DNA from: Xanthomonas hortorum pv. pelargonii
GTDB lineage: Bacteria > Pseudomonadota > Gammaproteobacteria > Xanthomonadales > Xanthomonadaceae
Assembly: GCF_024499015.1 (NCBI RefSeq)
Contig: NZ_CP098604.1
Location: forward strand, 4,092,001 to 4,156,000
Direction: 5' to 3'
Length of the DNA: 64,000 nt
A program made the position numbers and the translations under genes. The notes under the pieces were generated by a model. That model worked only from the letters and a program-made list of their open reading frames with translations. It did not search any database and was not told where the DNA came from. This document shows positions 29,970-45,558 of the stretch, in pieces (positions within the stretch are counted from its first letter, which is position 1; each line of letters starts with the position of its first letter).

Positions 29970-30020
29970 GGCCCTTGCCCGCCCACCCTCGCGGGACACG
30001 CCGCAAGTACGTCCGTGTAG
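29970..30020 (+). repeat. Palindromic element R4, left half (split by the IS)
   Basis: GCCCTTGCCCGCCCACC, then TCGCGGGACACGCCGC, AAGTACGTCCGTGTAG, identical in type to R1 and R5 but stopping abruptly after GTGTAG at 30020, where IS110 sequence begins. The other half resumes at 31272. Confidence 0.9.
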
Positions 30021-30142
30021 CAACTGTGTTGATCAGGACCCCGATTCGCGGCCTTCGATCGGTTTCCTTCGGGTGCGTCCATCGGTAGGTGCCGGCCGCT
30101 GGCCGGCACGCTTTTGCGTTTGCGCATGGCCGTCAAATGCGC

Positions 30143-31065
30143 TCAGGCGGGCTGCATGGCGGCTCTTTCATCGCGCACGCGCGCATTGAGGATCACCAGC
30201 ATCTTGCGCATCACCGCCACAAGGGCGACCTTGCCCTCCTTGCCGCGTGCCCGCAGCGCTCTGTAAAAATCGCGCAGACGTGGCTCGTGCCGAGCTGAGG
30301 ACATGGCCGCCATATACAGCGCCTGTCGGATGTCGGCTCGGCCTCCGCCAATCCCCCGTTTACCTCGCATCGCGCCGCTGTCGCGCGAGAGCGGGGCAAC
30401 GCCAACCAATCGGGATATCTGCTTTCCGCTGAGCGTCCCAAGCTCTGGTAACCGGCACGCCAGCACGGCCAGCAGCACCGGACCGACCCCTTTGAGCGTC
30501 TTCAACGCAGCCAGGTGCGGTTGCTCGGTGAGTAGCGTCTTCAGCTGCCCGGCGATCAGTTTGTCTAACCGCGCCACACTGCGCACAAGCTGGTTCACGT
30601 TGCCCTGCAGCAGCTTGCGCAGCGCTTTTTCCGCAACCTGCTGCAGCTGCTGCCTTGCTGTTTTCAACAGATCCACCAGTTGCCGACGGGCACGCACATA
30701 CTCGCCCAGATCGCGCTGCCATGGTTCCAGTGGAACATACTGATGGAGCTCCATCTTCTCGGCCATGCAGGCCAACATGGCGGCGTCCAGCCGGTCGGTC
30801 TTGGCCAGTCCCAAACCGTTGGCCAAGTTGCGTGCCCGTTGCGCATTGACGCGCGCCACCGGCAATGCGGCGTGATGCAAGGCATCCAGCGCTGCCAGCT
30901 CGTAGCCCCCGGTCGCCTCCAGCACCACTTGCCGCACCGACAGCGTATTCAGCCAATCGACAAGCTTCCGATGACCGCCTGCGGTGTTGGTGAACTGACG
31001 GGTCTGGCCTCGAAAACCGCAACGTCAAGAGAGTGTTTGCACACATCGATCCCGATTCCGCTCAT
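30143..31065 (-). pseudogene. IS110-family transposase (DEDD recombinase) with a frameshift
   Basis: Translation from ATG 31065 gives MSGIGIDVCKHSLDVAVFE (RuvC-like first Asp in GIDVCK), then leaves frame. Adding one base to the C-run at 31008-31009 restores GQTRQFTNTAGGHRKLVDWL leading into VRQVVLEATGGYELAALDAL (second acidic residue), KTDRLDAAMLACMAE (third and fourth), and the C-terminal Tnp domain GVGPVLLAVLACRLPELG and RLVGVAPLSRDSGAMRG with the catalytic Ser. Repaired length is 307 residues, normal for the family. The break is a one-base homopolymer deletion, so an assembly error is possible; otherwise the copy is inactive. Confidence 0.9.
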
Positions 31066-31098
31066 GGGAAATCTCCGCTAGGCTAGAAATGTCGAGAG

Positions 31099-31240
31099 CT
31101 CCCTCGCTTGCCCAGTCTTATCGTTTCGAGTGTCACCTCGGGCAACTGTTCGGGCGAATCAAGGGAGAATCCGGCGTGGGTACCAAGCTACACGGCGATC
31201 GCTGAGATCCAGGCTCTCACGGTGGCCCACGCCGGCTCTC
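31099..31240 (-). ncRNA. Predicted IS110 bridge RNA with readable target and donor guides
   Basis: On the IS coding strand, upstream of the transposase, two stem-loops occur in the order target loop, donor loop. Stem 1 is CCGGCGTGGG (31235-31226) with CCCACGCCGG (31180-31171). Its 45-base loop holds GTGAGAGCCT, matching the left target plus core GTAAGAGCCT at 9 of 10, and CCGTGTAG, complementary to the right target CTACACGG at 8 of 8. Stem 2 (CTCCCT/AGGGAG and GCCC/GGGC, 31167-31099) encloses ACAGTTGC, identical to the IS left-donor end plus first core base, and GATAAG, complementary to core plus right-donor end CTTATC. This is the architecture reported for IS621. Exact RNA ends are unknown. 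Confidence 0.75.
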
Positions 31241-31271
31241 GACACCTAAACTGCCAGATTCCGAACAGATA

Positions 31272-31336
31272 AGGCTCTTACGCGGCATCCATGCCGCGTA
31301 AGGTCCCGCGACGGTGGGCGGGCAAGGGCCAGCGGA
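31272..31336 (+). repeat. Palindromic element R4, right half
   Basis: AGGCTCTTACGCGGCATCC, ATGCCGCGTAAGGTCCCGCG, ACGGTGGGCGGGCAAGGG: inner hairpin and right outer arm of the same element whose left half ends at 30020. From 31337 to 31540 I see no gene or clear signal. Confidence 0.9.
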
Positions 31337-31540
31337 GATGGTCGGTGTGCGTGGTCGAATAGTGCACGCCGCGCGTGCGACCGATGATGGTGCTGTCTGA
31401 TCAGCTCAGTTCGATTCGACCGACTTCACTGCTATTTCCGACACTTCACTCGTTGACGAAGGCGATTGCGGCCAAGATTTTGCCCAACTCGCTACAGCGC
31501 TCGAGCTGTTTTGTTAGCCACTTCAAGTCGCGCAGTTGGG

Positions 31541-37073: not shown

Positions 37074-37194
37074 TCACCATCGAGACCGGCGGAGGGACAG
37101 GCCCTTTGATGCCGGGGCAGCCAGCGGAGCGCGCAAGCGCCCGCGTTTGGTGCCAAATCCTGCGGGGACCTGCGCGTCCGCCGAAAGATGGTTC
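37074..37194 (+). promoter_or_regulatory. SAM-I (S-box) riboswitch
   Basis: The consensus core is easy to read: P1 left ACCATC (37076), then GAGACCGGCGGAGGGACAGG, CCC, TTTGATGCC, GGGGCAGCC, the GGTGCCAAATCCTGCGGG junction and P1 right GATGGT (37187). These match the S-box core words GAGGGAxxGGCCC, TGAxxCCxxGGCAxCC and GGTGCxAAxTCC. It senses S-adenosylmethionine. The 3' strand of P1 overlaps a competing hairpin (GTTCGA 37191 with TCGAAC 37214), and another hairpin CGAGCT/AGCTCG follows at 37221-37239. There is no T-run, so control may be translational. Confidence 0.95.
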
Positions 37195-44856: not shown

Positions 44857-44925
44857 CGTCGGCGTCCTTTGGATGAGTGCCGAGTCTAACTGTCGCGCGG
44901 TGTCATCCAATCGCCAGACACAAAA

Positions 44926-44958
44926 AAACGGCGGACCCGACGAGGTAGTCCGCCGTTT
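44926..44958 (-). terminator. Rho-independent terminator after yceI
   Basis: On the minus strand, AAACGGCGGAC pairs with GTCCGCCGTTT across 11 bases and ends in a run of seven T. It closes the yceI-cybB-yceI operon. Confidence 0.9.
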
Positions 44959-44988
44959 AGTGGCCGCGTCCGGTTGCGGCCGGTGGCG

Positions 44989-45558
44989 TTACTTCGCCTT
45001 GAACACGACCTTGGTGCTGATCGCGGTTTCGTTGGGGATGGTCTTGGTGTCGGCCCAGTCGCCGCCGCCCACGCCGAAGTCCAGGCGCTTCACCACCGCC
45101 TTGCCGGCCAGCACCGGCTGTGCGCCGGGTGTCCAGGTGAAGGTCAGCGTGACCGGCTTGCTGATGCCGCGCAATTCCAGCGTGCCTTCGGCGGCGTACT
45201 GGTTGCCGCCGAGTGCGCGGAACTTGTCGGCACGGTAGCGCGCGGTGGCGAACTTGGCCACGTTGAAGAAGTCCGGCCCCTGCAGGGTCGAATCACGATC
45301 GCCATTGCCGCTGACGGCACCTGCCAGCGGGATGCGCACGTCGAGCTTGGCACCGGCGAGATTGGCCGGATCGAAACTCAGCGTGGTGTCGAAACCGGGG
45401 AACTTGCCGGTGAAGACTTCGTCGTCGTACTTGCTGGCAAACACCAGCGACGAACCGGGCGCCTGGACGTAGTCGGCAGCGAGGACCGGGGCGGCAGCGA
45501 ACGTGGCCACCAGTGAGGCGGCGACCAGCAGGGGAGAGGCGAACAACCTGGACGACAT
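44989..45558 (-). CDS. YceI-family periplasmic lipid-binding protein
   Basis: 189 residues from ATG 45558 with AAAGGA nine bases upstream. Signal peptide LLVAASLVATFAAAPVLA. YceI lipocalin-like beta-barrel marks: LVFASKYDDEVFTGKFPGFDTTLSFDPANLAGAKLDVRIPLA, LQGPDFFNVAKFATARYRADKF and GTLELRGISKPVTLTFTW. Members bind isoprenoids such as ubiquinone-8 or polyprenyl chains. Third gene of the yceI-cybB-yceI cluster. Confidence 0.92.
   Translation of the reverse strand: MSSRLFASPLLVAASLVATFAAAPVLAADYVQAPGSSLVFASKYDDEVFTGKFPGFDTTLSFDPANLAGAKLDVRIPLAGAVSGNGDRDSTLQGPDFFNVAKFATARYRADKFRALGGNQYAAEGTLELRGISKPVTLTFTWTPGAQPVLAGKAVVKRLDFGVGGGDWADTKTIPNETAISTKVVFKAK

Follow-up and report, generated by a model that had tools for sequence, protein, structure and literature searches.

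An IS110-family element of Xanthomonas with target-matched bridge RNA guides, and sX15 as its probable conserved antisense RNA

Does the non-coding end of an IS110-type insertion sequence in Xanthomonas hortorum pv. pelargonii encode a bridge RNA whose guides can be read against the element's own junctions, and how is sX15, a catalogued small RNA on the opposite strand of the same sequence, to be understood? The element lies in a stretch of 64,000 nucleotides of contig NZ_CP098604.1 (positions 4,092,001 to 4,156,000, here called the window; Table 1). An earlier note, made from the sequence of the window, had described the bridge RNA and overlooked sX15, an sRNA of the Xanthomonadaceae that Rfam catalogues on the strand opposite to it. 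We consider it very probable that this is an IS110-family element with a bridge RNA in its left non-coding end, on the strand of the recombinase gene, and that sX15 is antisense to it. Two other Rfam matches in the window are an Xoo2 sRNA (44922-44999, minus strand) and a SAM riboswitch (37074-37194, plus strand).

Table 1. Features of the IS110-type element and its insertion site, in window coordinates.
Feature	Position	Strand	Basis or remark
IS110-type insertion sequence	30021..31271	-	1251 bp between two CT cores
CT cores flanking the element	30019-30020 and 31272-31273		
Left target GTAAGAGC + core CT	31272..31281	-	guide match, empty sites in relatives
Core CT + right target ACACGG	30013..30020	-	guide match, empty sites in relatives
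Recombinase (transposase) gene	30143..31065	-	one-base frameshift near the gene start in the window copy
Bridge RNA core: target-binding loop, then donor-binding loop, shared base stem closing both	31091..31242	-	predicted ends
Left target guide (LTG) GTGAGAGCCT	31211..31220	-	junction match, covariation
Right target guide (RTG) CCGTGTAG	31188..31195	-	junction match, covariation
Left donor guide (LDG) ACAGTTGC	31142..31149	-	junction match
Right donor guide (RDG) GATAAG	31117..31122	-	junction match; covaries with right donor between clades
-10-like CAGTTT, putative bridge RNA promoter	31248..31253	-	junction motif in 44/45
Rfam sX15 (RF02234), antisense to the bridge RNA core over its full length	31091..31248	+	169.8 bits, cut-off 55
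-10-like TAGGCT, putative sX15 promoter, ending six bases ahead of the catalogued 5' end	31079..31084	+	

The family of the recombinase was read from an intact relative (L007), whose protein contains both PF01548 (DEDD RuvC-like) and PF02371, matches the NCBIfam model 'IS110 family RNA-guided transposase' with 189.8 bits (cut-off 140) and has the IS621 transposase as its best PDB match (E 2.6e-25); the recombinase has 307 residues here as against 328 in the IS621 PDB chain. The genome carries five copies of the element (98-100% identity). Their recombinase genes are all frameshifted, so that activity in cis is at present doubtful; intact copies exist in other Xanthomonas genomes. The window copy has a frameshift of its own (alignment column 50), and the other four have a common one at column 437, one of them with a third. 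These four (L006, L027, L036 and L040) occupy four different sites, which suggests that the element spread after the damage with help in trans, that gene conversion took place or that the sequence is in error.

The 206-base left end that precedes the recombinase gene folds into two stem-loops, as had been claimed for the transposase-proximal non-coding end: the minus strand (31099-31271) reaches -81.9 kcal/mol (z -2.82), and none of 200 shuffles was as stable. The four guides were also read correctly in the earlier note. In the first loop the LTG matches GTAAGAGC/CT (slashes mark the core) at nine of ten positions, the mismatch being an rG.dT wobble, and in this copy it pairs with the core dinucleotide, while the RTG is perfectly complementary to CT/ACACGG (8/8). 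In the second loop the LDG matches ACAGTTG/C, the right end of the element, and the RDG matches CT/TATC, its left end. This is the layout of IS621 of E. coli as described in PMC11208160, with a bridge RNA encoded in the left end ahead of the recombinase gene, target- and donor-binding loops carrying LTG, RTG, LDG and RDG, a CT core, a REP-type target and a promoter rebuilt across the junction of right and left ends (RE-LE); the guides and targets are different ones. The seekRNA elements of the IS1111 family (PMC11187229) share the DEDD transposase and a guide RNA that matches both target strands. However, their longer non-coding region is described as lying downstream of the gene, with the order of matches reversed, whereas the guide loops here lie upstream of it.

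All five copies in the genome are inserted at GAGC/CT/[AC]CA[CT]GG. The corresponding target pattern, GAGCCTMCAYGGAYGKAYT, occurs at 195 sites in the same genome (87 forward, 108 reverse) and its reversed control at none in the same search, which bears out the proposal that the element is programmed for a Xanthomonas repeat. Among the matches listed from these 195, the target repeats are often paired in inverted orientation at a distance of about 180 or 260 bases, in the manner of REPINs. Relatives were searched for the empty site with both element flanks joined as the query (482 positions). Four relative loci were inspected: L272, L273 and L274 have the exact contiguous site GCGTAAGAGC/CT/ACACGGACG, and L276 has a variant that differs in one base. 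Since the site lies inside a repeat, the orthology of these empty sites rests on the aligned flanks: the query matches across both flanks in two genomes (G022 with L272 and G023 with L273; 88% identity) and up to position 362 of 482 in a third (G021 with L274; 92% identity).

RF02234 has matches in 21 of the 35 genomes of the genus and in 62 of the 297 genomes of the family (42 above the cut-off), spread over 21 of 54 genera; 14 control genomes had none. The family genomes and further contigs yielded 228 loci with a bridge match. Where a recombinase was found, it lay on the bridge strand (185/185, eight at an unusual distance); none was found in the covered stretch of the other 43 loci. Leaving out 26 duplicate places and 19 loci with no recognisable left junction gave 183 loci, which still include some duplicate copies, and the tests were run on unique guide-target pairs (80 left, 68 right). 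Guides were excised by motifs tuned by eye, with three LTGs entered by hand and the LTG of the TAGGAG class counted as longer by one base. The motif for the left junction presumes a core of CT, that for the right end the sequence CAGTTG; a right target was located in 108 of the 183 loci. The sequences in this test, the promoter tests and the others are related, and their counts are not independent events.

Aligning the guide loops of other copies with their insertion sites, as the earlier note had proposed, reveals covariation. With one target per unique guide there were 173 matches for 39 LTGs (permutation mean 93.6, maximum 131) and 94 for 21 RTGs (mean 47.1, maximum 72), totals reached by none of 20,000 permutations on each side. 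At core-adjacent positions 1 to 5, the unique left pairs match in 77, 71, 62, 66 and 50 of 80 cases and the right pairs in 63, 64, 60, 48 and 58 of 68; four or five of the five positions match in 63/80 left and 56/68 right pairs. Identical loops at unrelated sites, which would speak against guidance, were sought among the same pairs and are approached by a minority, two or fewer positions matching in 3/80 left and 5/68 right pairs. Two of the three poor left pairs look like alignment-register cases and the third, L010, is an insertion beside another copy's end, its left flank being the left end of that copy (a tandem insertion). Some of the five poor right pairs stem from damaged right ends. 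Insertions outside the usual repeat sequence are L013 together with plasmid remnants, L019, L056, L059 and L078. Opposite the core the LTG carries CT at 103 of the 183 loci and other letters at 80, a difference from IS621, whose guides are described as including the core (PMC11208160). On the donor side, where 27 of the 183 loci were left out, the RDG complements CT plus three donor bases in 48 of 73 TATC loci and 30 of 35 TATG loci, and the fourth donor base in 0 of 35 TATG loci. In the TAGGAG class it is the complement of CT+TGT in all 40 loci examined and of CT+TAT in none. From class to class the right donor guide changes along with the end of the element, with exceptions at some loci.

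Eight guide-target classes are found among 59 distinct intact recombinases (18, 18, 11, 7 and 2 members and three single rows), counted after classes that differ in site but not in guide had been merged (ten to eight). Placed on the tree, eight classes imply at least seven changes, which is the minimum for that number and becomes eight if the two GGGAGAG lineages are counted apart. The targets of relatives include the Xanthomonas repeat, Stenotrophomonas palindromes and a TGTAGGAG repeat; CCAACCC/CT/CTCCCG repeats are the target of the GGGAGAG guide, which occurs in two separate lineages. A clade of 18 of the 59 recombinases, with its bridge RNA in the left end, has the target CTAACGC/CT/GAATTAAGCC..., which agrees with the consensus of integron attC sites (loci L118, L120-L126, L131, L170, L172-L174, L177, L185, L198, L199 and L201); a strict motif finds the GTTAG[AG] partner in 15 of 25 right flanks. 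To our knowledge, the known attC-targeting elements are of the IS1111 type.

The bridge RNA has a candidate promoter whose -35 element, TTGCTT, is assembled only by the joining of right end, core and left end, as in a circle. The 45 unique junctions examined (those of 55 that passed stricter right-end and no-N filters) give a -35 of TTGCTT (44) or TTGACT (1), and in 44 of them a hexamer of the form NANNNT follows at a spacing of exactly 17, compared with 0-2 at other spacings. In the inserted state the first three -35 bases are supplied by the target (AGCCTT, CGCCTT and so on), and a simple consensus scan of 30900-31400 found no sigma-70 promoter and no terminator. A promoter conserved across the RE-LE circle junction is thus seen as a sequence motif, and the start of the bridge RNA was predicted from the position of its -10. 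Circle-junction promoters of IS110 elements were already known (PMC11208160).

The opposite strand carries a second conserved signal. Of 126 loci retrieved, 122 were compared, and in 121 of these RF02234 is on the strand opposite to the bridge RNA; the exception, L074, has two elements in opposite orientations, the nearer of which agrees. Of 49 distinct regions taken from intact elements, 47 have a TAnnnT hexamer at one and the same place just upstream of the catalogued 5' end. In shuffled sequences the count is 4.3 on average and 10 at most, in other stretches of equal length 0-1, and in one that overlaps this place 7. Its variants are TAGGCT (14), TAGACT (12), TAGAGT (8), TACAGT (6) and others (7), with the three inner bases variable and the first of them mostly G, as in a -10 element. 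For this antisense promoter motif the -35 is weak, with a mean best match of 2.8 of 6 positions compared with 2.3 in shuffled sequences. We rejected the idea that this -10 is general across IS110: among distant elements, where 40 of 44 loci tried gave a usable, distinct region, it occurs in 3 of 29 outside the Xanthomonadaceae-like clade (shuffled mean 5.5).

Schmidtke and colleagues reportedly obtained sX15 in 2012 by RNA sequencing of Xanthomonas campestris pv. vesicatoria. In strain 85-10, plasmid pXCV183 carries the left end followed by only the first recombinase codons, with an RF02234 match of 150.9 bits antisense to the bridge strand. A search for its right end gave a single match, to query positions 1-235 only, and no CAGTTG in the next 740 bases; the junction promoter therefore probably cannot form there, and probably only the antisense promoter could work. 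The same LE-only remnant is present on plasmids of X. euvesicatoria and X. hortorum (L269-L271), with the right neighbourhood in common. sX15 is probably made from the plus strand as a conserved antisense RNA, a reading supported by its conserved -10, and this is the novel part of the finding. The Rfam entry, the same sequence on the opposite strand, names no mobile element, and we found no paper linking sX15 with IS110 or a bridge RNA within the open-licence literature searched.

Two known systems bear on this antisense RNA. The conserved internal antisense promoter motif sets the element apart from IS621, and the words 'antisense' and 'Rfam' are absent from the main text of PMC11208160. ISPpu9 of Pseudomonas putida (IS110/IS492 family) likewise resides in REP sequences and produces Asr9, an antisense sRNA of ∼ 180 nt directed against the 5' untranslated region of the transposase mRNA, which raised transposase translation when described in 2021, before bridge RNAs were known (PMC8450116). 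The position of sX15 agrees with that of Asr9; ISPpu9 differs in having a second sRNA, Ssr9, downstream (PMC8450116).

An explanation that leaves the bridge RNA intact and denies only the antisense RNA is that the database gives sX15 the wrong strand and that the bridge RNA alone is produced. Both strands fold nearly alike, the plus strand reaching -75.6 kcal/mol (z -2.22; 7/200 shuffles as stable), and the stems have no clear strand polarity. Compensatory changes that preserve pairing in several stem columns of 38 distinct intact classic elements (for example GC/CG/TA at columns 50-102, AT/CG/GC at 54-99, CG/GC at 71-80) speak for the bridge RNA as a structured RNA but hold for either strand. 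We tried counts of G-U versus A-C stem pairs as a strand test and rejected it, since the counts across classic and TAGGAG-class sets gave no decision: the 38 intact classic elements have 31 to 22, a set of 70 classic ones 65 to 63, the 19 TAGGAG-class elements 6 to 12 and all 89 together 119 to 86. The wobble polarity of guide mismatches was also set aside as a test of the working strand; it favours the bridge strand weakly (43 sense versus 24 antisense unique changes at six positions, where cross pairs have ∼ 54% sense, and 24 versus 18 at five). However, the TAnnnT motif ends at a fixed six bases from the catalogued 5' end in nearly all regions, a reverse reading would begin at the junction -10 itself, the pXCV183 remnant makes a junction promoter there improbable, and ISPpu9 makes an antisense RNA from the corresponding place. 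We regard a strand error as unlikely.

Much less likely still is that sX15 is the working RNA, a trans-acting sRNA on genes, with the guide-like matches as by-products of the insertion site. Rfam does catalogue the sX15 strand as an sRNA gene, its -10 is conserved, and LE-only remnants such as that of pXCV183 persist on plasmids. Yet a trans regulator of host genes would have no need of loops that covary with insertion targets, as these do; the recombinase is on the bridge strand at every locus where one was found; and the donor guide of each class changes together with the end of the element. Chance, in which short complementarities of a GC-rich and structured region would have been over-read at a single junction, is negligibly probable: single guide matches of 6-8 bases are weak alone, but permutation tests, empty sites and several guide-target classes stand against it.

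The bridge RNA with sX15 as its antisense is therefore the reading we prefer. Protein family, guide order, CT core, empty site, junction promoter and covariation agree with, and support, an IS110/IS621-type bridge RNA, so the assignment to RNA-guided elements made in the earlier note stands, for a window copy that is itself frameshifted. In the mechanism we propose, the target-binding loop would pair with both strands of the high-copy Xanthomonas repeat around the CT core, and the donor-binding loop would do so with the ends of the element itself once these are joined; with both loops paired, the recombinase would exchange circle and target at the core. By analogy with IS621, excision would join the ends and build the bridge RNA promoter, and insertion would split it again. 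In this clade a second putative promoter, inside the element and facing outward, would give sX15, complementary to the bridge RNA. Transcription, RNP formation and recombination are what we infer from these features.

sX15 would act on the bridge RNA, modulating it and/or the leader of the recombinase mRNA, and may control the element. We speculate, tentatively and without favouring it over its negation, that sX15 is a conserved, element-encoded anti-bridge RNA that anneals to both guide loops: in the inserted state the bridge promoter would be split and sX15 would dominate, on excision the junction promoter would take over, and more copies would mean more sX15 and hence copy-number control of an RNA-guided recombinase, or else an Asr9-like tuning of recombinase translation.

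The relatives form a natural series of reprogrammed bridge RNAs, in eight classes including the attC clade, from which pairing rules can be read without screens. A catalogued sRNA of the Xanthomonadaceae is linked to a mobile element, and sX15 should thus be read with the insertion sequence in mind. Some RNA-guided recombinases may encode an antisense RNA that regulates their own guide, a possibility that can be put to the test.
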